This document shows, piece by piece, positions 17,543-51,024 of a stretch of DNA of 64,000 bases (positions within the stretch are counted from its first letter, which is position 1; each line of letters starts with the position of its first letter). The position numbers were made by a program, and so were the translations under genes. Below the pieces are notes generated by a model, which saw only the letters and a list, made by a program, of their open reading frames with translations, was not told where the DNA came from and searched no databases. Origin of the DNA: Hydrogenophaga intermedia (GTDB taxonomy: Bacteria > Pseudomonadota > Gammaproteobacteria > Burkholderiales > Burkholderiaceae_C); assembly GCF_023715105.1 (NCBI RefSeq), contig NZ_JAMBNO010000020.1, positions 1-64,000 of the forward strand, read 5' to 3'.

Positions 17543-18856
17543 TTAGCCAATTTTCGCCGCCACCTTGCTGAGAAAGAGAGATTCGAAGTCAGGGTGGAGC
17601 GCGGTCGATTGTTCGGTGAGCGAGGAGACCTTCTCCATCAAATCGTTCTTGCTGTAGGTGAGCGCGTTGCGAGACACTCGGTCTCCCTCAATTTCAAGGT
17701 CGCCACCTGCACCGTAGATCTTGTCCATAACAGCTGGCGGGTAGTAGTACTCAATCCCGTTCATTGGCCAAGTAATGATGTTCTCTGGCTGAAGACCCAT
17801 CTGCACCAACTGCGCAGGTAGGCTGGCGGAATGCACCGAATCAAGTACAACGAAGATCCTGTCTCGATACGGACTGCGTTGAATGTCCGCGAGCAATCCC
17901 CTAGCTACGCTCAGAACTTCCTTAATGCGGGTGTCCGAGTTGGCAGAGATAACGCTTAGCTGGGCATTCGGAAAGCGAACTGCGCACACTCTTTCGATGA
18001 ACCGATGATCAGTCTTTCCTTCAACAAGGACAATGGCCGAAGGCAGGTAGAGGGTTTCGAAGCGGTTGCCCAGTAGGAAGAAGTGGACGCGGTTGAACTC
18101 GCTCTGAGACGTGACTGGCCTCACGCTGATCGTGTCGGCATGCTTAGTCACCACGTGGTTGTTAGAAACGTGATGACGATCGAGAAATACGGTCGAGTGG
18201 GTAGCAAATACCAGTGTACGAATGTGAGGAAAGTACCTAGCTCTGTGTTGGCGATCGAAGAGAAAGTCAGCTAGAACGCCCTGTGCTTCAGGGCTGATGC
18301 CCAGCTCGGGCTCGTCAATAAGGAACGTGTCGTACTCGGCGTCTAGCAGGCTTGTCACAAGCGTTGCAATGAGACGAAAGCCAGAACTGGTGTACGAGAT
18401 GTTGTGCCCATCACAGGAGATGTATCGCTGCGACATCGAATTGCCTTCGACAGTTTGTCGTATTTCAAGCTTTACACCAAGCAGCGTGTCCACAATCTCA
18501 ATCAGTGATGCACGCTGAGCGTCGCTAAGCTCCGCGATCGCTTGCTGCAAGTTGACCGGCGAGTTGTCAATGTTTTGCTGCTGCTGTTGCCACTGCTGCA
18601 TGAATTGACGCCAGCGTTCGTCCCTGCGGTTTCTGTTGGGCGTGTAATAGCCAAGCAGGTTGAAGTTCTGATATCGAGCGGGCCCAAGGTAAGAGGCGCT
18701 CTGTCCCCACTGTTGCGTCAGTGACTTTAGAAGGAAGGACTTCCCGCAGTTGTTGCGTCCCACTAGGACGGCATACTCAAGCTCGCGAATTCGCCTCAGA
18801 GTGTCATGAGATTCAGCATCCAGTTGCGTGTTGGGCCGTTGGTCGTACTGGTACAT
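17543..18856 (-). CDS. OLD-like ATPase with TOPRIM domain
   Basis: A 437-residue protein. The N-terminal ABC-type ATPase has Walker A VGRNNCGKSFLL (about residue 32), an SxG-like signature region (YTSSGFRLIATLVTSLL), Walker B FLIDEPELGISPEAQG and the switch histidine in FATHSTVFLD. A TOPRIM-type domain follows (about 270-360: AIVLVEGKTDHRFIERV, then RIFVVLDSVHS). This order matches OLD-family nucleases, several of which defend against phages. It stands alone with no UvrD-like partner, unlike the related gene at 44559-46130. The glutamine-rich stretch at about residues 87-95 is unusual. Confidence 0.75.
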   Translation of the reverse strand: MYQYDQRPNTQLDAESHDTLRRIRELEYAVLVGRNNCGKSFLLKSLTQQWGQSASYLGPARYQNFNLLGYYTPNRNRRDERWRQFMQQWQQQQQNIDNSPVNLQQAIAELSDAQRASLIEIVDTLLGVKLEIRQTVEGNSMSQRYISCDGHNISYTSSGFRLIATLVTSLLDAEYDTFLIDEPELGISPEAQGVLADFLFDRQHRARYFPHIRTLVFATHSTVFLDRHHVSNNHVVTKHADTISVRPVTSQSEFNRVHFFLLGNRFETLYLPSAIVLVEGKTDHRFIERVCAVRFPNAQLSVISANSDTRIKEVLSVARGLLADIQRSPYRDRIFVVLDSVHSASLPAQLVQMGLQPENIITWPMNGIEYYYPPAVMDKIYGAGGDLEIEGDRVSRNALTYSKNDLMEKVSSLTEQSTALHPDFESLFLSKVAAKIG

Positions 18857-35417: not shown

Positions 35418-36503
35418 ATGAACATACTCATTTTTCTCGGTGGCCTGATCCTGCTGGTCATCGGTGCCAACGTGCTCGTCCGCGGTGCGTCCAAGCTGGC
35501 GCTGTCGTTCGGCATCAGCCCGCTCGTCGTAGGACTCACCATCGTGGCCTTCGGCACCAGCGCGCCCGAGGTCGCGGTGAGTGTCGGTGCCGTGCTCGAC
35601 GGCAAGACCGACATTGCCATCGGCAACGTGGTGGGCAGCAACATCTTCAATGTGCTGTTCATCCTGGGCATCAGTGCGCTGATCGCGCCGCTGGTGGTCA
35701 ACATCCAACTGATCCGCCAGGAAGTGCCGATCATGATCGGCGCGAGCCTGCTGTTGCTGGCGCTGGGGTTGGACGGCCGACTGTCGTTCTTCGACGGTGG
35801 AATTCTCTTCGTGCTGCTCGTGTCGTACACGGCGTTCCTCGTCGTGCAATCGCGGCGCGAGACACAGGCCGCCAAGGATGAGTACGCCCACGAGATCAAA
35901 CCCGCCGAAGCGGGTGCTTGGGACGACCGGCTGCCCGCCCAACTGCTGCTAATCGGTGCCGGCCTGGCGGCGCTGGTGTTCGGATCCGAATACCTCGTGC
36001 AGGCCTCGGTGAACTTCGCCAAGGCGATGGGCGTGAGCGACTTGATCATCGGCCTGACCATCGTCGCCGCGGGCACCAGCATGCCCGAGGTGGCCACCAG
36101 CATCACCGCTGCCATCAAGGGCGAGCGCGACATCGCAGTAGGTAACGTCGTCGGCAGCAACACCTTCAACATTCTGGGCTGCCTGGGCCTGTCGGGCCTG
36201 GTGTCGGGTGACCTCGGCCTGGCCATGGCGCCGTCGCTGCTGGCCTTCGACATTTGGGTCATGCTGGCCGTGGCGCTCGCGTGCCTGCCGGTCTTCATCA
36301 CAGGCCGTGAGATTGCGCGCTGGGAAGGCGGCGTCTTCCTCGGTTACTACGTCGCCTACGTGGCTTACCTGATCCTGGCCGCGCAGCAGCACGACGCGCT
36401 GCAGGCGTTCTCGGGTGTCATGCTTGGCTTCGTCGTTCCTCTGACGGTGGTGACGCTGGTGGTGGTGGTGATCCGCCGTCCGGCGGCAAGCAGCGTGCCG
36501 TGA
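35418..36503 (+). CDS. Calcium/sodium antiporter, CaCA family (YrbG-like)
   Basis: A 361-residue membrane protein with about ten segments and the two alpha-repeats of cation/Ca2+ exchangers: GISPLVVGLTIVAFGTSAPE near residue 33 and GVSDLIIGLTIVAAGTSMPE near 204. Each carries the conserved glutamate used for Ca2+ binding, plus the paired GNVVGSNIFN and GNVVGSNTFN. ATG 35418 starts directly with the first helix. It exchanges Ca2+ or another cation for Na+ or H+. Confidence 0.92.
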   Translation: MNILIFLGGLILLVIGANVLVRGASKLALSFGISPLVVGLTIVAFGTSAPEVAVSVGAVLDGKTDIAIGNVVGSNIFNVLFILGISALIAPLVVNIQLIRQEVPIMIGASLLLLALGLDGRLSFFDGGILFVLLVSYTAFLVVQSRRETQAAKDEYAHEIKPAEAGAWDDRLPAQLLLIGAGLAALVFGSEYLVQASVNFAKAMGVSDLIIGLTIVAAGTSMPEVATSITAAIKGERDIAVGNVVGSNTFNILGCLGLSGLVSGDLGLAMAPSLLAFDIWVMLAVALACLPVFITGREIARWEGGVFLGYYVAYVAYLILAAQQHDALQAFSGVMLGFVVPLTVVTLVVVVIRRPAASSVP

Positions 36504-36573
36504 GTGAGTTGATGAGCATTCAGGACAATCTGCTCAGTCCCCGCCGTGCCTTGCGGGACGACGTCGAGGCCCC

Positions 36574-37173
36574 ATGACGGAATCCATCGTGCAGCGGCTG
36601 CGTGAAACAGCCGCGAACCTGCCTGCCGAGAGGGTGTCGATGCAAACCCTGGCGCAAGCCCACGGGCCTGCCGCGCACGGCACCTGGCTGCTGCTGATGG
36701 CAGTCCCGTGTCTCCTTCCCGTGCCTGGCGTCGGCACTGTGCTTGGCCTGGGAATGGCCGCGCTGGCGGCGGCGATGTGGCGGGGTCAGTCCTCTGCATG
36801 CCTTCCTCGGCGGGTGGCTGAACTCGAACTCTCACGCACCTGGGCGCAGCGGGTGCTGGGCATGCTTGCGTCTGCCTATTGCGTGGCTGGGCGTCTTGCC
36901 AGGGCCCGGCTGAGCCATCTTGCATCCCCGGAGAGACGGTCATGGACCGCCGCAGCGATTGGGTTGATGGCTTTCATCGTCGTCATGCCCATCCCCTTCG
37001 GCAACGTGCTCCCGGCGCTGGCGCTGATGCTCATCGGACTGGGGCTGGTGTTTCGCGATGGTGTTGCGGTTGTCCTGGGGCTGGCGATGGCGGCCCTGGC
37101 GATGTGCGTCACTGCGGGCGTCATGCTGATGGCATGGGCCTGGGGCAGTGACTGGCTCCTGGGTTTGTTTTGA
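36574..37173 (+). CDS. ExoD-family membrane protein
   Basis: A 199-residue membrane protein resembling ExoD: soluble N-terminus (RLRETAANLPAERVSMQTLA), then LLLMAVPCLLPVPGVGTVLG and MAFIVVMPIPFGNVLPALAL, where the paired P-x-P turns are typical. ExoD affects exopolysaccharide formation and alkali tolerance in rhizobia; the mechanism is unknown. Its place after a cation exchanger supports a role in pH or ion homeostasis. Confidence 0.85.
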   Translation: MTESIVQRLRETAANLPAERVSMQTLAQAHGPAAHGTWLLLMAVPCLLPVPGVGTVLGLGMAALAAAMWRGQSSACLPRRVAELELSRTWAQRVLGMLASAYCVAGRLARARLSHLASPERRSWTAAAIGLMAFIVVMPIPFGNVLPALALMLIGLGLVFRDGVAVVLGLAMAALAMCVTAGVMLMAWAWGSDWLLGLF

Positions 37174-37192
37174 ATCTGAACGGAAGTTCGAA

Positions 37193-37669
37193 ATGATCTA
37201 CGCTGCCCTCAAGACGGTTCATGTGCTGGCCATCATCCTGTGGATCGGTGGCATGGCATTTGCGCACTTCTTCCTGCGCCCGGCCGTCGCCCAGCTCGAA
37301 GCGCCAGTCCGCTTGCGGCTGATGCACGATGTGCTCGGCCGCTTCTTCCAAGCGGTACTTGTGGCCGCGCTGCTGACGCTGGCCAGCGGCGTGTGGATGC
37401 TGGGCCGTGTGGCCAAGCAGGTGGTGCAGTCGGGGGGCAACTTCGAGATGCCGCTGGCCTGGACCGTCATGGCGGCGGTGGGCGTCGCGATGGTGGCGAT
37501 CTTCATGCACATCCGCTTCGTGCTCTTCAAGCGGCTCGGCCGGGCCGTGGCAGCGTCCGAGTGGGCCGCCGGTGGTGCGGTCTTGGCGCAGATTCGCACA
37601 TGGGTCTCGATCAACCTCGGCCTGGGCGTCTTGGTGCTGCTCGTGACGCTGATGCGCTGGACGACCTGA
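37193..37669 (+). CDS. CopD-family membrane protein
   Basis: A 158-residue protein with four hydrophobic segments: YAALKTVHVLAIILWIGGMA, FQAVLVAALLTLASGVWML, VMAAVGVAMVAIFMHIRFV and VSINLGLGVLVLLVTLMRW. H9 in the first segment and H104 in the third would be available for haem or copper binding, as in CopD-like integral membrane proteins. ATG 37193 follows GGAAG. Confidence 0.75.
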   Translation: MIYAALKTVHVLAIILWIGGMAFAHFFLRPAVAQLEAPVRLRLMHDVLGRFFQAVLVAALLTLASGVWMLGRVAKQVVQSGGNFEMPLAWTVMAAVGVAMVAIFMHIRFVLFKRLGRAVAASEWAAGGAVLAQIRTWVSINLGLGVLVLLVTLMRWTT

Positions 37670-38231
37670 GTCCTGACCCTGCAGACCACTTTCCGGCGTC
37701 GTGGACGGCACCGATACGGTCAGCCGACCAAGCTGCCCGACCAAGCACAAACTCGGCGAAGGCATCCAAGGTGACGCCTCTGAAGACGGCGGCGCGTACG
37801 CGCCAGGTCAGTGCCACTCCGAGCGTTACCACCGAGAGGCCGTGGTTCGCCGCTGCCGACGGGTTTCACGTCAACGAGCGCGCATGCGCCCTGGTCTCAA
37901 GGAAGCTGCAGCCGTTGGGGTCGCCCTTCGCCGCGGGAATGACCGGTCTTCTGTTTAACCGCCGGCTGCTGTGGGTCGAAAGCTGCCGGCGGGGCCATGA
38001 AGGGCGAACTTCCGCCATCAGTCTGTTGTGGACTCTGGGATGTAGCGCCGACAGTGCACTGCGAGGGCCACTAATTGCTTTGCGAGGGCTTGCGAAGAAC
38101 AGCTTTCGACGGCGGCTTGTCTTGTCACATGGCAATCTGCGCCTGCGCCTGCGCATCAGCGACTGGGCTCAGTTCGGTTGTTGGACAGCCAGCGTGCTCT
38201 CCCGAAGCCGCCCTGGGCCGCTTGCGCGCCT
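37670..38231. other. Gene-free stretch
   Basis: About 560 bases between the CopD-like gene and the minus-strand CoA-transferase. Only low-quality overlapping frames are seen; no RNA gene or mobile element is recognised. Confidence 0.4.
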
Positions 38232-39479
38232 TCAGCCTACCGAGGCAGACGCTTGTGGTCCTGCAACGGCTTGAGCATCGACCAAACCCTGTACCTCGGC
38301 TTCGTCGAAACCGAATTCGCTCAAGACCTCAAATGTGTGCTCACCGATCAGCGGCGCCGGGCCTGTACGGGCAGGACTAACGCCGTCAAAGTGCAGTGGA
38401 CAACCCACGGCCTGGTCCAGGCCGGCGCGGGTGTCGTGGTTGTCGATCACCATGCCCACGGCGCGGGTCTGAGGATGACTCAGTGCCTGCCCCACGTCCT
38501 GCACGGGGCCCACGGGTACGCCTGACTGCGCAAGGGCTTGCGTCCAATAAGCCACCGATTCAGTGCGCAGCGCCGTGTTGATGAGGGCTTCGAGCTCACG
38601 GCGGTTGGCCAAGCGCGCGGCACCACTCACGAAGCGCTCGTCCTGCGTCCATTCGGGGTGCCCCAGCGTTGCGGCGATGCGCACCCAATTGGCCTGGTTA
38701 CCTCCTCCAATGGCGATGGCGCCATCGGCACATGCGTAGGTCTGATATGGCGCGATCAGCGGGTGTGCCGTCCCCATGGGTTTTGCGACGATCCCTTTGG
38801 AGAAGTAGGCTGCAGCGAACCAGTAGGTTTGCTGCATGCATGCCTGCAGCAATGAGGTGTCGACACGCCCGCCCTGGCCGGTGCGCAGGCGGCGGATGTA
38901 GGCGGCCAGCACGCCCAGCGCGGCCAGGATGCCGGCGTTCACGTCGGCCACCGAGATGCCAGGCTTTACGCCTGCACGGCCCTCTTCACCGGTGACGCTG
39001 ATGAGGCCGGAGAAGGCCTGCAGGATCAGGTCGAAGCCGCCCTGCTCGGCCAGTGGCCCGGTGCGGCCGTAACCGGAGATGGCAGCGTAGATAAGGCGTG
39101 GGTTGGCGCGCAGGAGCACCTCGTGGCCGAGCCCGAGGCGCTCCATGGTGCCGACGCGAAAGTTCTCGGTCACCACGTCGACCTGCGCGACCATGCGCAG
39201 CAGCGCCGCGCGGCCTTCGGCCGTGCGCAGGTCCAGCGCCACCGAGCGCTTGCCGCGGTTGATCATCACGAAGGCGGGCGACAGGCCGAGATCGCCCGGG
39301 CGCTGGTAGCCACGCGCGTCGTCACCGCCGGGAAAGCGCTCGACCTTGATCACGTCGGCGCCCATGTCGGAGAGCAGCACGCCGCACACGGGGCCGGCCA
39401 TGATCTGCGAGAGCTCGAGCACCTTCAGGCCCGCGAGCGGGCGGTCGAAGTCCTCGGGCAGAGCGGTCTGCTCGGTCAT
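38232..39479 (-). CDS. CaiB/BaiF-family CoA-transferase
   Basis: A 415-residue class III CoA-transferase with LKVLELSQIMAGPVCGVLLS, GADVIKVERFPGGDDARG, NRGKRSVALDLRTAEGRAAL and GGFDLILQAFSGLISVTGEE, the last holding the expected aspartate. ATG 39479 is the family start; the longer frame overlaps the Bug gene. It ends a minus-strand group (enoyl-CoA hydratase, Bug, CoA-transferase) and would activate the operon's acid substrate. Confidence 0.9.
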   Translation of the reverse strand: MTEQTALPEDFDRPLAGLKVLELSQIMAGPVCGVLLSDMGADVIKVERFPGGDDARGYQRPGDLGLSPAFVMINRGKRSVALDLRTAEGRAALLRMVAQVDVVTENFRVGTMERLGLGHEVLLRANPRLIYAAISGYGRTGPLAEQGGFDLILQAFSGLISVTGEEGRAGVKPGISVADVNAGILAALGVLAAYIRRLRTGQGGRVDTSLLQACMQQTYWFAAAYFSKGIVAKPMGTAHPLIAPYQTYACADGAIAIGGGNQANWVRIAATLGHPEWTQDERFVSGAARLANRRELEALINTALRTESVAYWTQALAQSGVPVGPVQDVGQALSHPQTRAVGMVIDNHDTRAGLDQAVGCPLHFDGVSPARTGPAPLIGEHTFEVLSEFGFDEAEVQGLVDAQAVAGPQASASVG

Positions 39480-39483
39480 TCGC

Positions 39484-40467
39484 TCAACCTTCCATCTTGA
39501 TGCCGGCGGTCTTGATGACCTGGCCCCACTTGGCCAGGTCGGCGCGCACGCGTTCCTGCACCCATTCGGGCGTGCGCGCCTGTGCGTCCTCGACCCCGTA
39601 CTTGTCGAGCGTGGCGACCACCTCGGGGTCGGCCATGGTCTGCACCATGGCCTGTTGCAGGCGCTGCGCGATCGGTGCCGGCAACTGCGGCGGCGCAACC
39701 ATGGCGAACCAAGGCGTGGCCTCGTAACCGGCCACGCCCTGCTCGGCGATGGTGGGCACGTTCTTCATGCTGGCGGCGCGCTGTGCCGAGGTGACGGCGA
39801 TGGCGCGCATGCGGCCGGCCTGGATCAGCGGCAGCGCCGGCGCGATGGTGGCGAACGCCACCTGCACCTGGCCGGCCATGAGGTCGTTCATCGCGGGGGC
39901 GGCACCGCGGTAGGGCACGTGGCGGATCTGCGTGCCCGTGAGCTGCTTGAACAGCTCGCCCGCCAGTTGGTGCGGCGAGCCGATGCCCGACGAGGAGTAC
40001 GCGTAGGCCTCAGGCTTTTCCTTGAGCAGGCGGACCAGCGAGGGCACGTCGTTGGCGGGCACGTCGTTGTTGACCAGCAGCACCAGGCCGCTTGCGCCCA
40101 CGTAGCCCAGGGGCGTGAAGTCGCGCACCGGGTCGTAGGGCACGCTGCGCAGGTTGGGAATGATCGACATGCTGCCGGTGTCGGCCAGGTAGAGGTGGTA
40201 GCCGTCGGCCGGCTGGCGCGCCACGTAGGCAGCGGCGATGGCGCCGCCCGCGCCGGGGCGGTACTCGAACACCACGGGCTGGCCGAGCAGTTTCTCCAGC
40301 CGAACGGCCAGGGTGCGGGCCACGATGTCGGCCGCGCCGCCGGTGCTGTAGCCGATGTGCAGCTTGAAGGCCTGCGACGGCCAGGTGTTGGCGTGCAGCG
40401 CGGGCACGGCCAGCGCCGCGGGGGCCGCGCCCATCAGGCGCAGCAGGGTTCGTCGATCGATGTGCAT
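39484..40467 (-). CDS. Bug/TctC-type tripartite tricarboxylate solute-binding protein
   Basis: A 327-residue exported binding protein with signal sequence RRTLLRLMGAAPAALAVPAL and the family elements FKLHIGYSTGGAADIVARTL, EYRPGAGGAIAAAYVARQPA and SSGIGSPHQLAGELFKQL. It lies four bases upstream of the CoA-transferase gene and would bring in the substrate acid. No membrane components of a transporter are nearby. Confidence 0.88.
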   Translation of the reverse strand: MHIDRRTLLRLMGAAPAALAVPALHANTWPSQAFKLHIGYSTGGAADIVARTLAVRLEKLLGQPVVFEYRPGAGGAIAAAYVARQPADGYHLYLADTGSMSIIPNLRSVPYDPVRDFTPLGYVGASGLVLLVNNDVPANDVPSLVRLLKEKPEAYAYSSSGIGSPHQLAGELFKQLTGTQIRHVPYRGAAPAMNDLMAGQVQVAFATIAPALPLIQAGRMRAIAVTSAQRAASMKNVPTIAEQGVAGYEATPWFAMVAPPQLPAPIAQRLQQAMVQTMADPEVVATLDKYGVEDAQARTPEWVQERVRADLAKWGQVIKTAGIKMEG

Positions 40468-40505
40468 GTCTTGTCTCCTTCGTTGTGATGGGTGTCGGCC
40501 GCGGC

Positions 40506-41312
40506 TCAGCGGCCCTTGAACACCGGCGGCCGCTTTTCTTGCCAGGCGCGCATGCCTTCGCGCAGGTCTTCGCTGGCCAGGCTCGCGCGGTGGCGCTCGT
40601 CGCTCGCCGCCACATCGAGTTCGCCGCGGGCGATCTCGTTGAGCGAACGCTTCATGCCCTCCACCGCACGCGGCGCCTGGGCACTCAGGGTGCGCACCAA
40701 CGCGTCCACCGTGCCGTCCAGGGCCTCAGGCGCCACCACGTCGGTGAGGTAGCCGATGCGCAGCATTTCCTCGGCCTTGATGGTGGTGGCAGTGAGGAAG
40801 AGCCGGCGTGCGGCGTTGGTGCCCAGGCGGTGCGACCAGCGGATCAGGCCTTCGGTGTAGTAGTGCAGGCCCAGGCGGCTGGCGGGCATGAACATCTCGC
40901 AATCGCTGCGGCCGACCCGGAAATCACAGCTCAGCGCGAGGTCCGTCGCGCCGCCGTAGACGCTGCCGTTGAGGCGGCACACGGTGGGCACGCGCAGGGA
41001 CTCCAGTTCCAGCGTCATGGCCGGGAAGTCGGGTAGCGGACGTTCGGCCCGGCCCGCCGGCGCGATGGCGCCGCTGCGCTCGCCGAGCTCATCGAGGTCG
41101 TAACCGGCACTGAACACGCGGCCCACGCCGGTGAGCACGAGCACGCGCACCTGCGCATCGCGTTCGACCTCGGCCAGGATTTCGCGCAGGCGGATCACGT
41201 CCTCGGCCTGCATGCGGTTGAGCACCCGGGGGCGCTGGAGCGTCACGGTGGCCACGCCGTCGGCGATGGCCAGGCCGGGCAGATCGCCCAGGCTCTCGTC
41301 TCTTGCATTCAT
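40506..41312 (-). CDS. Enoyl-CoA hydratase/isomerase family protein
   Basis: A 268-residue crotonase-fold protein with VLVLTGVGRVFSAGYDLDEL (oxyanion hole) and VCRLNGSVYGGATDLALSCD, where the second oxyanion residue lies. The glutamate pair of true hydratases is not clearly present: around the usual site the sequence is SRLGLHYYTEGLIRW. It may therefore be an isomerase, decarboxylase or another crotonase activity. First gene of the minus-strand catabolic group. Confidence 0.85.
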   Translation of the reverse strand: MNARDESLGDLPGLAIADGVATVTLQRPRVLNRMQAEDVIRLREILAEVERDAQVRVLVLTGVGRVFSAGYDLDELGERSGAIAPAGRAERPLPDFPAMTLELESLRVPTVCRLNGSVYGGATDLALSCDFRVGRSDCEMFMPASRLGLHYYTEGLIRWSHRLGTNAARRLFLTATTIKAEEMLRIGYLTDVVAPEALDGTVDALVRTLSAQAPRAVEGMKRSLNEIARGELDVAASDERHRASLASEDLREGMRAWQEKRPPVFKGR

Positions 41313-41328
41313 TTCTGTCTCCTTTCGA

Positions 41329-41348
41329 TTCATATGAATTTATATGAA
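41329..41348. promoter_or_regulatory. Tandem GntR-type operator candidate
   Basis: TTCATATGAA (41329-41338, a perfect palindrome) is followed immediately by TTTATATGAA (41339-41348). It lies in the divergent promoter region between the enoyl-CoA hydratase start and the GntR start. The AT-rich palindrome stands out in this GC-rich DNA. Confidence 0.55.
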
Positions 41349-41436
41349 CGCGTTTTCAAGGTCAAGAGCATTTGAAATGAGGGAAAACCACGACGCATGA
41401 ATTCCCGAAAGGCGCCCTGGCCGTACACTGCCGCCC

Positions 41437-42111
41437 ATGAGCGACGCGACGACAACAGCCGAACGCACGACGACCACGGTGACCGACGAGGTGCGACTGG
41501 CGCTGGAAGACGACATCCGGCAGGGCCGCCTGCGCCCGGGCGACGCGCTGGACGTGAAGGCGGTGGCCGAGCGCTTCGGCATCTCGCGCACACCGGCCAA
41601 AGAGGCGCTGCTGCAACTGGCCGCCGCGGGCCTGATGAACTTCTCGCCGCGCCGCGGCGCGGTGGTGACGCGGCTGGAGCCGCGCGAGGTGTTCGGCATG
41701 CTGGAGGTGCTGGCGGTGCTCGAATCGGAGGCCGCCCGGCTGAGCGCACGCCGCATGAGCAACGCGCAACGCCAGGCGCTCGACGCGGTGCAGCAGGAGG
41801 CCGAGCTGGCCGTGGAACGCGACGACATCGCGGCCTACACCGGGCTCAACTTGCGCTTGCACGACCTCATCTACCAGGGCTGCGACAACAGCTACCTGGC
41901 CGGCCAGATCGTGCACATCCGCGAGCGGCTGGCGGCCTACCGGCCGGTGTCGTTCGAGCGGCCTGGCCGCATGAAGGCGTCGCACCGCGAGCACGGCGCC
42001 ATCGTGCGCGCCATCGTGCGCGGCGACGAACCCGAAGCGCACCGCGCGATGGTGGAGCACATCACCGTGGGCGGCACCGCGCAGGCCGAGCTGATGCTGC
42101 GCATGCGTTGA
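41437..42111 (+). CDS. GntR-family regulator with FCD domain
   Basis: A 224-residue FadR-subfamily regulator. The winged helix-turn-helix covers about residues 10-78 (EVRLALEDDIRQGRLRPGDA, AERFGISRTPAKEALLQLAA). The all-helical FCD ligand-binding domain follows, with histidine-containing helices such as TGLNLRLHDLIYQG and REHGAIVRAIVRGD that bind a metal in the family. It is divergent from the CoA-ester operon and probably represses it in the absence of its acid ligand. Confidence 0.88.
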   Translation: MSDATTTAERTTTTVTDEVRLALEDDIRQGRLRPGDALDVKAVAERFGISRTPAKEALLQLAAAGLMNFSPRRGAVVTRLEPREVFGMLEVLAVLESEAARLSARRMSNAQRQALDAVQQEAELAVERDDIAAYTGLNLRLHDLIYQGCDNSYLAGQIVHIRERLAAYRPVSFERPGRMKASHREHGAIVRAIVRGDEPEAHRAMVEHITVGGTAQAELMLRMR

Positions 42112-42323
42112 GCGATTCAGATGCGGCTCGCGCAGGACTGCACTCGTTCAACTTCTTGAGTTGTCCAGCTTCCGCATAAGACTGATCTCGGTCGTTCGAC
42201 GCTGCGGCCTGCGATGACCACTATCAGCCATAAGCAGAAGTCCCGGGCTTCAACGCGTCAGACCCGCGCGTTCAGATTCGCGCGAATTCTGGGGGTGCGG
42301 TGTAGGCGCTGCGCAGCAAATCC
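42112..42323. other. Gene-free stretch before the IS5 element
   Basis: No gene is seen between the GntR stop and the IS5 target duplication. Confidence 0.4.
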
Positions 42324-42327
42324 CTAG

Positions 42328-42343
42328 GGAAGGTCTGCACAAC
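42328..42343 (+). repeat. IS5 left terminal inverted repeat
   Basis: GGAAGGTCTGCACAAC; matches the right end perfectly in reverse complement. Confidence 0.9.
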
Positions 42344-42463
42344 ACCCGCCGCAGCGAGGGTTGATGCATGAGATTTCAGATGGCGGCAGCTCCAGGGCAA
42401 TTCGGGTCATTCGAGGGCCGATTTGCGGCCCTTTGCCAGCCCTTTCGGTCGCTGCGGGCGCAC

Positions 42464-43447
42464 TCATCCCCGGGCCTCGCTCAACAGCGTTCGGCGCACC
42501 ATCCACAAGTTGCTCAGCGCAAACAACGTGTACAACTGCGCCGTGTTCTTGGTCATCCCCCGGTAGCGCACCTTCACGTGCCCGAACTGGCGCTTGATGA
42601 CGCGAAACGGGTGCTCGACCTTGGCGCGGATACTGGCCTTCACATGTTCAAGCTTGTCGAGCACCGCGCCCATCGGGTTGGCCTTGTCCAGGGCTTTGCG
42701 TTTGCCCGGGCGCATGGCCACGTGCCAGGTGGCCTCGATGTGCTGCACCTCCTCGCGCTTGGCCACGCCCTGGTAGCCCGAGTCGGCGAACACGTCCGCT
42801 TCTTCGCCATGCAACAGCGCGCCGGCCTGCGTCACGTCGTTCACATTGGCGGCCGTGCCGATGACTGTGTGCACCAGCCCCGAGTCGGCATCCACCCCGA
42901 TGTGCGCCTTCATGCCGAAGTGCCATTGATTGCCCTTCTTGGTCTGGTGCATCTCGGGGTCGCGCTCGCCGCTGCTGTTCTTGGTCGAGCTGGGCGCTGC
43001 AATCAGCGTGGCGTCCACCACCGTGCCGCTCTTCAGAAGCAGGCCCTTGGCCGTGAGCGTGGCGTTGACCGTGGCCAATATCTGCAGGCTCAGGTTGTGG
43101 GTTTCGAGCAGGTGACGAAAGCGAAGAATGGTGCTCTCGTCGGGCAGGTTGTCTTCGCCCATGTCCAGCCCGGCGAATTCGCGAAACATCGGTGTGTCGT
43201 ACAGCGCTTCTTCCATCGCCGGGTCCGACAGGTTGAACCACTGTTGAAGGAAGTGGATGCGCAGCATGGTCTCAGTGGCAAAGGGTGGGCGTCCGCCCTT
43301 GGCGCCGGGTGCCGGTGCATGCGGCGCAATCAACGCCACCAGCTCCGCCCACGGTACCACCAGGTTCATCTCGTCGAGGAACTCGCGCTTGCGCGTGCGC
43401 TTGGTCTTGCGCTCGAATCCGTTCTCGCCCAGGCTCATTTGCTTCAT
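42464..43447 (-). CDS. IS5-family transposase
   Basis: A 327-residue DDE transposase. The first aspartate lies in VVDATLIAAPSSTKN, the second in DVFADSGYQGVAKRE and the glutamate in KVEHPFRVIKRQFGHVKVRY, as in IS5-group proteins. The N-terminal part has LVVPWAELVALIAPHAP and the helical TMLRIHFLQQWFNLSDPA. Full length and uninterrupted. Confidence 0.93.
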   Translation of the reverse strand: MKQMSLGENGFERKTKRTRKREFLDEMNLVVPWAELVALIAPHAPAPGAKGGRPPFATETMLRIHFLQQWFNLSDPAMEEALYDTPMFREFAGLDMGEDNLPDESTILRFRHLLETHNLSLQILATVNATLTAKGLLLKSGTVVDATLIAAPSSTKNSSGERDPEMHQTKKGNQWHFGMKAHIGVDADSGLVHTVIGTAANVNDVTQAGALLHGEEADVFADSGYQGVAKREEVQHIEATWHVAMRPGKRKALDKANPMGAVLDKLEHVKASIRAKVEHPFRVIKRQFGHVKVRYRGMTKNTAQLYTLFALSNLWMVRRTLLSEARG

Positions 43448-43483
43448 GCCGTCACTGTCTCACATCGGGCCAGCGGCGCCGAG

Positions 43484-43499
43484 GTTGTGCAGACCTTCC
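43484..43499 (-). repeat. IS5 right terminal inverted repeat
   Basis: GTTGTGCAGACCTTCC; reverse complement of the left end. Confidence 0.9.
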
Positions 43500-43539
43500 C
43501 TAGCTCAGGATCGCGGAGATGCGCTGATAGATCACACTT

Positions 43540-44574
43540 TCAAGATGCGCCCCGGTGCTTTCTGAACAGCTTCTCAGGCGCGATGAAAAGATTACCCCGC
43601 GCCCGCGAGAAGGCCACGTAGAGCTTGTTCCGAATGATCGGCTTCGCTTGGGAAAGTTGGCCGCGAGAGAAAAGAGCCCAGCTCGTTGGATTGAGCACCA
43701 CGCAGACGTCCTCGTAGTGATCGAGACCTTTGCAGGCTCCCCAATTGTGGGAATTGCAGCCGTAAAGCCAGTGCTGCTCCAGAAAGAGCTTCACGATCCC
43801 CGGGTTCGCGTAAACACGATCGACGTCAGCTTGAGATTCCAAGACTTCAACACTCACGTTGGTTGAGGCTGCTGAGGCGATCTGAATGCCAAGCGTCTTG
43901 GTGATGTACTCGCAGACCTGAGAAGCGCAACGGTGGCTCTCCGAAAGGGAACTGATGTCGACGTGAAAACCCGCCATTTCGAATCGCTTTCGATAGGCTT
44001 CGTAGTTGTCGTGCAGTGACCGATTCACGTTTCCATCGTGGCTCGTCGCGAACGTGTGCTGATAGAAGTCCCCAACCAAGCGAAAGGTCGCTTTTGTCTT
44101 TGCGAGGGCTAACAAGAAGTTGAAGTCGTGCCCGCCAAAATCTTGGACCTCGTCGACGAACACATCGTCGTAGTAGCGATCGACCCTAGCCCGCAGTTCC
44201 TCCATGTATCCTTTGACGGCTAGTAGCTTGGCCATGCGACAGTGATAGATCCGATCGCCGTGCATGTAGCGCAGCCGACTGGTCAGCGGCATACGACTTG
44301 ATTCCTTGGTGGGGATCGCGAATGAGATGCCGCGGCTGCACATTTCGGAATGAAGAAAGGGCTTGTAGCAGAAGCGGTTGAGGAAGGAAAAGTAGGTGTT
44401 GACCGTGACTGTGGCCGGGTGCCCGTCGAGCCTTTTGGCGATACGGCGACGCAGGTCGTCTTCCGTGTTGGTGGTGTAGGTGATCACTAACGATCGGCGC
44501 GACGGGTCGATCCGGTCGACAATGCTTCGAGTCTTGCCCGAGCCCGCCACCGCGAAGGTCACTGCCTTATCCAC
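43540..44574 (-). CDS. UvrD-like superfamily 1 helicase (GajB-like)
   Basis: A 344-residue SF1 helicase, smaller than typical GajB (about 490). Motif I is AVAGSGKTRS, a variant Walker A. Motif II is DDVFVDEVQDFGG, motif III-like FRLVGDFYQHTFATS, and motif VI KLYVAFSRARGNLFI. The start overlaps the ATPase/TOPRIM gene by 16 bases, which couples them. In Gabija systems and class 2 OLD loci a UvrD-like partner follows the OLD nuclease in this same order. The gene ends 37 bases from the IS5 copy but its motifs are complete. Confidence 0.8.
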   Translation of the reverse strand: MDKAVTFAVAGSGKTRSIVDRIDPSRRSLVITYTTNTEDDLRRRIAKRLDGHPATVTVNTYFSFLNRFCYKPFLHSEMCSRGISFAIPTKESSRMPLTSRLRYMHGDRIYHCRMAKLLAVKGYMEELRARVDRYYDDVFVDEVQDFGGHDFNFLLALAKTKATFRLVGDFYQHTFATSHDGNVNRSLHDNYEAYRKRFEMAGFHVDISSLSESHRCASQVCEYITKTLGIQIASAASTNVSVEVLESQADVDRVYANPGIVKLFLEQHWLYGCNSHNWGACKGLDHYEDVCVVLNPTSWALFSRGQLSQAKPIIRNKLYVAFSRARGNLFIAPEKLFRKHRGAS

Positions 44575-46130
44575 GCGATTGCATCCCGGATGTATTTAGG
44601 TGCGGTGAGCTCGGGTGCACCCTGTTCAAGCAACTCGAACGCCGCGTCGGCCTTGTTGGCGATCATGTAGTCCTGCACGCTCAGAGACTTGCGCGCAGCC
44701 CCGAAAAGCCTCTCGCACAAGGCTTGGTTGTCCTGGTAGACGCACACCTCGAATGTGTTTCGCTTGTCGTCAGCATCTGCGAAGACTCGCGCGTTCTCCA
44801 TTTCAAAATCTGCGTAGTTGTCGACGCAATTCTTCTGCCAGTGTCCGTCGTTGTCGCGCACCACCGCTACTCTGATGCCCAAGAGCCTAGCGAGTTCGAG
44901 GTAGCGCTTGAAGCTTGTGCCGCCAACAGAGATCACGTGGACCCCGTCTTCGGCCAGCGTCGAGCCCTTGGAGTGCTTCTCGTAAAGAGCTTGGATGAGG
45001 ATGAACTCCGCGTCTCCCTCGACGAGGATCACCCTCTTGGAGAGGGCGAACTCCAGCACATGATTGTCAGGCGCCTTCATGAAGAACCTAGCCGTCGCTT
45101 CGCTCAGGTTAGACAACGCGGCGCGCTTTTCTGGGCTCGCACCGAGCAGCATCGCCTTGCGGAGGTCAAGGCGCGAACAAATTAGGCTGCTGTGGGTCGC
45201 GACCACGAGCTGGCGATCCTCGGCCTTCGCGAGCCTTTCTACGAGCTTGCGCATGTGCGCATGGCTCAGATGGTTCTCCGGCTCCTCGAGCAGGAGCAGA
45301 TGGAGCGGGAACGTGCCCTCACCGCCCCGTCGCAGTGCGAAGCTTGTCTTCACGAAGCACTGCCGCCCTTTTCCCCTCACGTCAAGCGGCAGTTTGTCCT
45401 CCAAAATGACTAGGTCGGTCTCGAGGTTCGCCTTAGTGCTCGTGCGGACCGCGAACTGGTATTCCGTGAGCGTCTCGTTGATGGCTTTGAGATGCTCGTT
45501 GCGGAAGTCGTCCTTCGCCTTGCGATACGAGCTCTCTAGCTTGTTCCTAGCTTTCACATCCGCGCTCACAGAAAAGAGCTGTTGTGTGTAAGCGCGGGTA
45601 GCCTGCTCGCTGTCAATCCGGGAACTGTCCAACAAAAGGTGCCGGACGTGCTTCCTGAATGCGATCTGTGAGTCCTCGGCGAAGGTGGCGAACCTCGGTG
45701 CGTAGTACTCAAACGGAAAAGGGGCGTCGGGATCGCGGAGATGTTCCGTCACTTCGGCCTCGATCTCCCGGGGCACGGCGCATTCCAATTTGATGCCGTC
45801 GCACATCTGGCCGTCGACGTTGTTCCTCCCGCACAGAAGCGGCTCATCGCAATCGGTGAGGAAAATTTCCACCAGCACGCGAGGCAAATCTACGACTAGA
45901 CGGCGGCTTGCCAGAAAACGGTTGACCGAGTCGAGGTTCAATAAGCTCTCAACGCCCAACGCCTCGATCTTTGATCTGCTCGCGCTTAAAGCAAGATCGA
46001 TGGCGAGGAGCACACTGCTCTTTCCGGCTTCGTTATCGCCGAGGAGCACGTTCAGTCCTGGATTCAATGGCAGGTCCAACCTCTCGAACCGCTTGAAATT
46101 GCGCAGGACGACTTTCCTGATTGCCGGCAT
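44559..46130 (-). CDS. OLD-family ATPase-TOPRIM nuclease (GajA-like)
   Basis: A 523-residue protein. The N-terminal ABC-type ATPase has Walker A LLGDNEAGKSSVLLAI (about residue 30), Walker B HLLLLEEPENHLSHAH and the switch histidine VVATHSSLICSR. The TOPRIM nuclease domain begins KRVILVEGDAEFILIQAL, with the aspartates of VAVVRDNDGHWQ following. GGAGG five bases before ATG 46130 is a strong ribosome binding site. Together with the overlapping helicase gene it fits class 2 OLD/Gabija systems, which cut or sense phage DNA when nucleotide pools fall. Confidence 0.85.
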   Translation of the reverse strand: MPAIRKVVLRNFKRFERLDLPLNPGLNVLLGDNEAGKSSVLLAIDLALSASRSKIEALGVESLLNLDSVNRFLASRRLVVDLPRVLVEIFLTDCDEPLLCGRNNVDGQMCDGIKLECAVPREIEAEVTEHLRDPDAPFPFEYYAPRFATFAEDSQIAFRKHVRHLLLDSSRIDSEQATRAYTQQLFSVSADVKARNKLESSYRKAKDDFRNEHLKAINETLTEYQFAVRTSTKANLETDLVILEDKLPLDVRGKGRQCFVKTSFALRRGGEGTFPLHLLLLEEPENHLSHAHMRKLVERLAKAEDRQLVVATHSSLICSRLDLRKAMLLGASPEKRAALSNLSEATARFFMKAPDNHVLEFALSKRVILVEGDAEFILIQALYEKHSKGSTLAEDGVHVISVGGTSFKRYLELARLLGIRVAVVRDNDGHWQKNCVDNYADFEMENARVFADADDKRNTFEVCVYQDNQALCERLFGAARKSLSVQDYMIANKADAAFELLEQGAPELTAPKYIRDAIAWIRQ

Positions 46131-46160
46131 CGACGCCTCCTCTTGCTTTCAATTACCTTC

Positions 46161-47657
46161 TTATGCCGGGTTGCCGGACTCCCCGTCGGGGCGCGCCGTA
46201 CTGGCCTCAGCGTCGACCGCGGGCACGCCTTGCTCCCCTGGTTGCGAGATGAGTCGGTGAATAGCGCGCAGCTTATCAAGCAGTTCGTCGAACGTGATCA
46301 CAACCACATCCTTCGTGGCGTTTCGGAACAGGTCGAGCGACCGGCGCTTGTCCTGTGTGTCGGGATCGCGGCCAGCGATCACCATGCAGTGCACATGGCC
46401 GACGTGCGTCTCGTCCGTCTCAACAAGACCACGAGCACGCGCGTGAAAGTTCATCGTGAGCTCGGAGCGCTGTGCAAGGACCTGCGAAATGGCGGCGCAA
46501 AGCTCCGCATGAGCGGCGTAGACGCTCCCGCGGAACGGACGTGTTTGCAGGAGCCGCGTGCGTGTAGTCTTGATCTCGACGAGCGCCAGGCCGCCCGTTA
46601 GTCGCTGGCGATACAGAAAGTCCGCGATGTTTTCGCCCCGACCATCCCAGGTCACACCGCCAACGTGCGCCTGTGCCCCGACGAGGAGCACTGGATAGGG
46701 AAAAGCCATCCCGAGGACGAATGGATGCTCCTCGAAGAAGCGTTGCCACACAGGCTCGTCTGGGTTCCGCCGCAATGTGGCTTCCAACCGATCGATGATG
46801 TCCGCAAGGGTGACTCGCTCGATCTCAGCGCGCAACTCCAGCAGCGCTCGCGGGTTTTCCCGCGCGATTTGCGACGCGTCGTGCAGTACGAGGTCCGTGG
46901 CTGCACTTCGGTCGCTTTGGCTTCTCGTGGGCTCCCGTGAGCTCAGTCGGACGAGTTCGTAGATCTCACCAGGCTGCGGCTGACGATCCTGTCTCGGGAA
47001 GCGCTCCGCGTCTACGGCGTGAACGATCTCGTTGTGGGCGAGGCGCTGTCGCTCTTGCAGCGCTCGGCGCTGGGAGCGCCGGCCGATCTGGTCCAGTGCT
47101 TTGCGGGCGCGTTCAAACCGGTCCCGGCCCAGGGTGAACGTGTTTCCCGAGAGCGAGGCAGCGTCACCGTCCACGAGCAGGAGCTCGGTGGCGTTGGTCG
47201 CCCGCTCAATTGCCTCGAGGATTAGGCGGTGCTCGTAGCGTAGTCCAAGCCCTCTACGCGCGTGGCGGGAGAAGCCGACTGGGAGCGCCTGCAAAAGCTC
47301 GTCGAACTCGTAGATGTCATGGGGCACCGGCCATTCGCCGGGAATGCGGATGCGCTGAATTTGCCGATACTTTGGGCCGAGGAAGTCCCGGCGGTAGGAC
47401 GCGGCGACCACCGGCGCCATGATCATCTCGTCGGGCGCGACGTGCGCGAGCAACACTTGCTGGTCAGCGCGCCGGCCGGTGTCGTCCGCAACCTCGCCGT
47501 GAGCGTAGATCTCGGCCCGCTCCTCCCCTTCGACCTCAATTACATTCAGGCTAACGGCGCATTCCTGGTCCGATTCAGGGCGCTCCGGCCCTTCGCCCGC
47601 GTCGTCTGACTGGGCGTCGATCTCGTCGTCTTCGTCCCTCTCTGGCGCTGTCGCCAT
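46161..47657 (-). CDS. Shedu-like (DUF4263) nuclease protein
   Basis: A 498-residue protein. The N-terminal 60 residues are acidic and low-complexity. A middle domain of about 100-250 is unassigned. The C-terminal part has the Shedu pattern: WQRFFEEHPFVLGMAFPYPV, GENIADFLYRQRLTGGLALV with the following EIK, and AHAELCAAISQVLAQRSELT, which fits a PD-(D/E)xK nuclease core. ATG 47657 follows AAAAAGGGGGG. The OLD gene starts 30 bases downstream, so the three genes form one operon. Shedu is normally a single-gene system, which makes this pairing notable. Confidence 0.75.
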   Translation of the reverse strand: MATAPERDEDDEIDAQSDDAGEGPERPESDQECAVSLNVIEVEGEERAEIYAHGEVADDTGRRADQQVLLAHVAPDEMIMAPVVAASYRRDFLGPKYRQIQRIRIPGEWPVPHDIYEFDELLQALPVGFSRHARRGLGLRYEHRLILEAIERATNATELLLVDGDAASLSGNTFTLGRDRFERARKALDQIGRRSQRRALQERQRLAHNEIVHAVDAERFPRQDRQPQPGEIYELVRLSSREPTRSQSDRSAATDLVLHDASQIARENPRALLELRAEIERVTLADIIDRLEATLRRNPDEPVWQRFFEEHPFVLGMAFPYPVLLVGAQAHVGGVTWDGRGENIADFLYRQRLTGGLALVEIKTTRTRLLQTRPFRGSVYAAHAELCAAISQVLAQRSELTMNFHARARGLVETDETHVGHVHCMVIAGRDPDTQDKRRSLDLFRNATKDVVVITFDELLDKLRAIHRLISQPGEQGVPAVDAEASTARPDGESGNPA

Positions 47658-48173
47658 GCTGCCCCCCTTTTTGGTTATTGCCCCTGTTCGGGTGCCGCGT
47701 GTTCCAGTTCAACGCGCTAGCTTGGTAGTGGTATTGCACGCATATCGCAGGACCTAACTATGACTTAGTCCCGAAGAGCGCCGATCCCTTGCGGTTCGAT
47801 CTGACCACCAACGCGGCGCTCGCCTCAGTCGCCCACCAAGATGGCCGCAGCCTGGCGAACATAGGAGTGGCTCGTTCGCAAACATTGTAAGGAGGGTCGC
47901 CCGGCTGGCCCCTCACAGATTTGGCGCCGTTAGCGCCCGCAACGCGGGCGTGCACCCGGCCTGCGAAGGAGCCGCGCAAGATCGTCGGCGAGAAGAACTG
48001 AGTCAGCGCAACAAAGAACCATGCGTTCAGCCAGAAGCCTGCTTCTGGCCGATTGCGGCAGTCTAGCTATGACCTCGCCTTCTGCAAGCAGTCGACCGAC
48101 ATTGCGGAGTTCTGAACGTCCGCAACGTGGCCCAGAACGAACGTTCGGCGCACAAACCCAGCCGACAGCTCCC
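47658..48173. other. Gene-free stretch before repeat copy B
   Basis: About 515 bases with no supported gene. It has several small stem-like elements such as GCCCGCAACGCGGGC near 47936-47950. It probably contains the promoter of the Shedu-led operon. Confidence 0.4.
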
Positions 48174-48352
48174 GCTGCATAGACGACCTTGACTCTGTCG
48201 TCCTAGGCGCGGTGGGAAGGATGCAGCCAAAACCAATGGCCAGCGCCAGTTGGCGAAAACTTTGGCGCGGAATAGGGCAGTCGCAACAACTAGCGACCTT
48301 CAGTCGCAGCACTTTGGCGCCAGTTCCGTTTAATGTGGCGCCCTACGTGAGC
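48174..48352 (+). repeat. 179-bp direct repeat, copy B
   Basis: This matches copy A (19649-19827) base for base in length with about 15 substitutions. It ends in the loop sequence GTGAGC, after which copy A continues with the right hairpin arm, whereas here the sequence runs into the 3' end of gyrB eight bases later. Confidence 0.85.
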
Positions 48353-48359
48353 AGCGCTC

Positions 48360-50993
<2,634 letters not shown>

Positions 50994-51024
50994 CGGGCTT
51001 CGGGGCAAGCTGGTGGGTCGTGGG

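Follow-up and report, generated by a model that had tools for sequence, protein, structure and literature searches.

The sduA-gajA-gajB locus

The window, by which we mean the whole stretch of 64,000 nucleotides that was analysed, carries three adjacent genes on the minus strand that belong to the Shedu and Gabija families. The first, sduA (46161..47657), was identified from its open reading frame and from Pfam and PADLOC profiles, and encodes a Shedu nuclease of 498 amino acids. It is followed by gajA (44559..46130), encoding an OLD-family ABC ATPase with a TOPRIM domain (523 amino acids) of the short GajA subfamily, and by gajB (43540..44574), which starts with GTG and encodes a compact UvrD-like SF1 helicase of 344 amino acids. 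The reading frames lie exactly where the initial annotation had placed them, including the gap of 30 bases between sduA and gajA (46131..46160) and the overlap of 16 bases between the gajA stop and the gajB start (44559..44574). The gap holds an AGGAGG ribosome-binding site, 5 bases ahead of the gajA ATG, and no terminator-like site was found in it (46131-46160). Such a site was found at 48307-48293 in the interval between gyrB and sduA, in a search that returned 8 sites compared to 4.5 expected, and a consensus search of 43300-48500 yielded no sigma-70-like promoter.

The GC content is 0.58 across gajA and gajB compared to about 0.65 on the gyrB side. On the other side, 36 bases beyond the gajB stop, lies an insertion sequence (42324..43503) whose inverted ends, of 20 bases each, are perfect and which carries a DDE transposase gene (42464-43447, minus strand); a related copy of this element (81%) lies after gyrB in one congener (L109; surveyed loci are designated L with a number). 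Elsewhere in the window, in a separate low-GC stretch, another OLD-like ATPase of 437 amino acids is encoded on the minus strand (17543-18856), apparently with a TOPRIM-like segment, which matches AAA_21 and, at modest E-values, the PADLOC models for AriA, Old and GajA.

The slot after gyrB

Upstream of sduA lies a minus-strand gene (48360..50975) that, from its sequence, we take to be gyrB; another gene of the window is presumably dnaN-like, and the window also holds dnaA. To compare this region within the genus, 40 congener genomes were searched, giving 16 stretches with a gyrB match (L102-L117), of which 15 were usable as L108 was too short. In all 16 stretches, similarity to positions 36000-51000 of the window ends at the gyrB stop codon (48360) or shortly after it, reaching furthest to 48118 (L104) and 48177 (L114), the insertion-sequence copy of L109 excepted. 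Beyond this point the genes differ among the 15 stretches, as judged by eye, and at least six of them carry catalogued or candidate defence genes, assigned by PADLOC, within about 5 kb after gyrB: DndC, DndD/PbeC and a HEC-06/Orf5 protein in L105, type I restriction-modification (R-M) in L111 and L113, a caspase in L107, PDC-S60 in L117 and PDC-S41 in L112. This congener scan comprised 10 proteins from those six congeners, one of them without a match. Because defence genes recur past gyrB in congeners, the cassette can be said to sit in a defence hotspot, and the slot after gyrB can be marked as such in the genus.

A variable, defence-rich slot with an insertion sequence at its other edge would also fit Shedu and Gabija being accidental neighbours, each with its own promoter and without a function in common. 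We hold this to be very improbable in view of the 30-base gap that is free of a terminator-like site and of the recurrence of the arrangement in other hosts described below.

The Shedu nuclease and its N-terminal domain

The 498-residue protein had been proposed to bear a DUF4263/Shedu-type C-terminal core, and this core is present (SduA_C of Pfam, E 1.6e-21). The protein matches the PADLOC SduA model PDLC00384 over nearly its full length (residues 35-475, E 7e-144) and the Bacillus cereus SduA sequence at 9e-25; the PADLOC and Pfam matches of all three proteins of the locus lie far beyond chance. Two domains can be distinguished, an N-terminal domain at residues ~35-215 that belongs to no Pfam family and a C-terminal PD-(D/E)XK nuclease domain (SduA_C) at residues 300-460. 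In the latter, D346, E361 and K363, presumably the catalytic residues of the PD-(D/E)XK fold, are invariant in 22 of 22 aligned sequences and line up with the corresponding D, E and K in SduA from B. cereus.

For the N-terminal part no Pfam match was common to more than one of the 22 relatives, and no sequence match was found to the Shedu proteins of B. cereus or E. coli with solved structures. The predicted structure of SduA is of moderate overall confidence (mean pLDDT 71, pTM 0.42), with residues 31-190 of the N-terminal part mostly confident (block pLDDT 78-95). A Foldseek search with this model gave matches at E < 0.001 exclusively to Shedu proteins; the nuclease domain matched B. cereus Shedu, and the full-length alignment with SduA from E. 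coli (8ps4), at an rmsd of 20 and 13% identity, was too poor to say anything of the N-terminal domain. SduA shares with known Shedu the DUF4263/SduA_C core with its D, E and K residues and the extent of its PADLOC match; its N-terminal domain shows no sequence match to the B. cereus and E. coli proteins, and it has Gabija directly downstream.

A short-subfamily Gabija pair

The claim of an ATPase-TOPRIM protein with all its motifs was borne out by matches to OLD-like_TOPRIM (E 1.7e-19) and AAA_15 (E 2.5e-17), and the protein matches the PADLOC GajA model PDLC00102 at residues 4-520 (E 1e-111). Residue runs to which we assign the names Walker A, Walker B (LLLLEEPENH) and TOPRIM (VEGD, RDND) are present, and the residues of the ATPase and TOPRIM motifs vary hardly or not at all across 10 aligned proteins. 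The third protein is likewise a compact SF1 helicase as annotated, with a UvrD-helicase domain (E 8e-9), and matches the PADLOC GajB model PDLC00148 at residues 3-331 (E 2e-42) as well as PDLC00140. It had been described as clearly shorter than known GajB, which is true compared to the solved chain 8sm3_B of 493 residues but not compared to the PADLOC models PDLC00148 and PDLC00140, which span 369 and 365 positions. As GajB models of this size exist, the 344-residue helicase falls into a class of GajB that is already catalogued, and novelty by length is ruled out by these models together with the common occurrence of GajB relatives on plasmids.

The structure of GajB is predicted with confidence (pLDDT 90.6). 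In the fold search the PDB match with the lowest E-value was GajB from a Gabija complex (8tk1_F, E 3.1e-11, TM 0.43), followed in the list by UvrD/PcrA-type helicases and viral SF1 helicases; ranked by TM-score, PcrA/UvrD-type helicases came first (0.6-0.68), exceeding 8tk1_F.

Like Gabija, the locus combines an OLD ATPase-TOPRIM protein with a UvrD-like helicase, encoded adjacently in the gajA-gajB order and with full-length PADLOC matches; it differs in that both proteins are of a short subfamily (523 and 344 amino acids, compared to 493 residues for the solved GajB chain) and in that a Shedu gene precedes them. By family and order gajA and gajB can therefore be called a Gabija pair, for which formation of a complex and anti-phage activity are predicted. 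The 16-base overlap was present in all 15 close pairs of short GajA and GajB that were compared, that of the window among them, and two more distant pairs differ in this respect. It thus marks the short GajA-GajB pair, which is mostly found without Shedu.

Gabija without Shedu

GajB has relatives in 8 genomes among 399 from the order, its own genome counted. In all seven other genomes gajA adjoins gajB, four times with the 16-base overlap, and no Shedu gene was found beside any of these seven pairs within the fetched 7-18 kb; one of the seven genomes (G354) carries, on a separate contig, a Shedu of another type. Plasmids bear GajB relatives too, with 1,777 matching records; the neighbours were inspected for one, a Klebsiella IncR plasmid on which vapBC, gajA and gajB follow one another, gajA and gajB overlap by 16 bases, and Shedu is not annotated. 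When viral contigs were searched with GajB by itself no relative turned up; alignment-based scans gave 17 and 44 loci. Counted by hand, 46 distinct viral contigs carry GajA and/or GajB relatives, several with flanks cut by contig ends close to the genes, and Shedu (E 1e-10) was present in 2 of the 46, one being an IncHI-like trio and the other carrying a Shedu fragment.

Occurrence of the SduA type and its association with Gabija

Shedu relatives of SduA at 1e-10 are rare. With the window's own genome counted each time, the family yielded 7 such genomes among 299, the order 3 among 399 and the phylum 6 among 398. The N-terminal domain of the SduA type was found in six of the 13 other genome matches, one of them partial. 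The closest SduA found, 73% identical, is that of Pseudacidovorax intermedius (L002), around which neither GajA nor GajB was detected within the 17-kb locus.

In total 42 loci share the SduA N-terminal domain, namely the window, L002, 6 genomes, 24 plasmids (sampled from 132-135 matching records) and 10 viral contigs. Four loci with partial or frame-broken Shedu genes (L024, L032, L045, L180), none with Gabija, were excluded, and the remaining 38 were drawn by hand into 27 clusters at 70% identity. Left uncounted were L052, which gave no match for the N-terminal domain, and L131, whose Shedu fragment adjoins Gabija and was located by way of the latter; L029, with UvrD-like pieces and no GajA, was scored as negative, and L179, in which a GajA-GajB pair lies about 3 kb from Shedu, was not scored as adjacent. 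As controls, 24 Shedu loci of other types were used (19 from genomes and 5 from plasmids), counted as loci and not as clusters; L182 resembles L185, and two or three of the loci are on contigs that are short or end close by (L063, L070, L071). The plasmid controls were 5 chosen by hand of the 15 matches from H126 down. By profile none of the 24 controls has an SduA-type N-terminal match or a GajA-GajB pair. Control L060 (5223-8887) has a Shedu with a different type of N-terminus close to a PtuA ATPase of Septu, and the GajA-like match in this locus was identified as this PtuA.

Gabija adjoins SduA-type Shedu in 8 of the 27 clusters, compared to none of the 24 loci of other Shedu types (Fisher p 0.0046, rising to 0.010 when the cluster of the window is left out). 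The enrichment is suggestive only, as the positives are mostly plasmid-borne and the controls mostly chromosomal; restricted to genome loci, the comparison is 1 of 6 to 0 of 19 (p 0.24). The positive clusters are those of the window (in which one of the two loci carries Gabija and the sister locus L002 does not), L011/L042, L027/L030, L021, L026, L028, L036 and L010. In the seven other clusters PADLOC confirms GajA (for the Cupriavidus cluster via L030), and in six of these seven also GajB. The helicase of L036 is split between frames, so that its GajB call derives from profile and annotation, and L021, with a partial match to a GajA model and a distant helicase, is best described as Gabija-like.

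Variable order, spacing and ancestry of the paired genes

The initial annotation suggested a survey for the same three-gene order with conserved spacing. The order does recur and is not confined to the genome of the window: Shedu, gajA and gajB follow each other in three other clusters, on an enterobacterial IncHI plasmid (L011) and a contig (L042), on Cupriavidus plasmids (L027/L030) and, with a more distant Gabija-like pair, in a genome of the same phylum (L021). The spacing, however, is not conserved, since in the four of eight clusters with Shedu first on the same strand the gap is 30 (window), 67 (L030), 105 (L011, measured to the annotated start) and 156 bases (L021). In three of the eight clusters Shedu and Gabija are convergent (L026, 47 bases; L028, 56; L036, 160), and in one, L010, Gabija comes first on the same strand. 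Across the hosts of these eight clusters no conserved three-gene order, orientation and spacing was thus found.

The paired genes also differ in their relationships. Seven GajA models are best among the eight clusters (PDLC00102, 00072, 00099, 00086, 00098, 00090 and 00095), with a different one in each of the four same-strand, Shedu-first clusters; the only model shared, PDLC00102, is best for both the window and L036, whose GajA proteins are only 27% identical to each other. A tree was built from 37 Shedu sequences, with L010 and L036 represented by single pieces because their Shedu genes are split between frames. On it the label of Gabija adjacency requires 6 changes, and the Shedu proteins of L011, L028 and L010 are neighbours whereas their Gabija differ. 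Together with the sister locus lacking Gabija, the seven GajA models in eight clusters give no sign that Shedu and Gabija are co-inherited. The varied models, arrangements and tree changes point to repeated placement side by side and not to descent of one three-gene system.

These data bear on the proposal that the genes form one composite of three components, SduA joining the Gabija complex as an additional nuclease subunit. The same-strand order in four clusters (window, L011/L042, L027/L030 and L021) and the tight spacing in the window would fit such a system, but the GajA models differ, spacing and orientation vary, both halves are found alone and Shedu is present on 2 of the 46 viral contigs with Gabija genes. 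A composite machine becomes less likely because subfamilies and arrangements mix, and we regard it as very improbable; a single new three-gene system found no support when fixed order and co-inheritance were looked for.

Other partners of SduA-type Shedu

SduA-type Shedu was also found inside type I R-M operons, at five loci in three clusters (L013, L033, L038, L043 and L041); a small gene of the DUF3800 or HAD type separates Shedu from hsdR in L033, in L038 and, judging by similarity, also in L013. In L048 (1959-4945) a PDC-S25 candidate defence gene, weakly like ThsA, overlaps the Shedu start by one base, and in L019 (7632-9866) an open frame of 264 residues directly precedes Shedu with zero gap. 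Given the type I R-M and PDC-S25 neighbours, Gabija is the commonest partner seen and not the sole one, and 16 of the 27 clusters have neither a Gabija nor a type I R-M neighbour.

One possible account of such neighbourhoods is an accessory or backup role, in which the N-terminal type of SduA would be specialised to ride in the operons of DNA-targeting systems (Gabija, type I R-M) and Shedu would fire when its host system is inhibited or has made DNA ends. The eight clusters adjoining Gabija, the three more in type I R-M operons and the PDC-S25 overlap in L048 agree with this, as does the description in PMC12839542 of backup nucleases in BREX operons, Shedu-like ones included. Nevertheless, we consider it unlikely for the present locus, since most clusters have neither neighbour, the closest relative found stands without Gabija, and in four of the eight Gabija cases the pair is convergent with or upstream of Shedu. 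A related and broader proposal, that SduA-type Shedu is a transferable partner module, repeatedly placed by or in the operons of type I R-M systems and of Gabija pairs from different subfamilies in unrelated hosts, where it would cut ends left by the host system or act when that system is blocked, is advanced tentatively and also seems rather unlikely.

A probable cassette of two defence systems

The reading we prefer, and consider probable, is a cassette of two systems in a variable slot by gyrB, in which a single-gene Shedu is followed by a complete Gabija of the short subfamily, the whole probably read as one transcript. The alternative raised initially, of a composite system or of two systems in one operon, thus resolves in favour of its second half, the composite half being unsupported. 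Each part also occurs alone, which argues for two partners rather than one new machine, and relatives of sduA without adjoining Gabija, such as L002 and L009, are consistent with SduA working as a single-gene system. Three observations speak against the two-system reading: the Gabija excess (8/27 compared to 0/24) is not obviously predicted by plain independent shuffling of islands, the 30-base gap is tighter than mere neighbours need, and the consensus search yielded no promoter.

If sduA and gajAB do form a two-system cassette, they would probably be co-transcribed and their protection might be additive. According to PMC12904381, Shedu binds to the ends of DNA and introduces nicks close to them, and its N-terminal domains are thought to set specificity. 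By analogy, SduA may be kept inactive by its N-terminal domain until a suitable DNA end is met and would then nick nearby. Gabija is reported in PMC12407980 to prevent circularisation of phage DNA that is not occupied by RecBCD, and GajA-GajB of the window might likewise act on linear phage DNA free of RecBCD and block its circularisation. Both systems would then act on linear phage DNA as it enters, each by a different test, and a phage that evades one would not thereby evade the other.

A precedent for two systems side by side is the GrwAB and VcSduA cluster of Vibrio cholerae VSP-II, which proved by experiment to be two independent systems (PMC12137116). There, too, a Shedu gene is clustered with a DNA-targeting system of two genes, but that partner is GmrSD-like and the Shedu has a GHKL ATPase N-terminus (PMC12137116). 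Backup or auxiliary nucleases, Shedu-like and OLD-TOPRIM among them, have been proposed in BREX operons (PMC12839542), and by this example Shedu might have a backup role here; the likeness lies in extra nucleases inside another system's operon, and the difference in the partner, which is BREX there and Gabija here.

The components are known, and the recurrent Shedu-Gabija pairing, which is mildly notable, is the part worth following. A search of the Shedu and DUF4263 literature by title and abstract found no published Shedu-Gabija gene pair, which does not establish its absence from print. If the pairing reflects cooperation, it would provide a natural test of combining two defences against linear phage DNA and of a backup role for Shedu. 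What the present locus adds is a chromosomal example of short Gabija adjoining Shedu.
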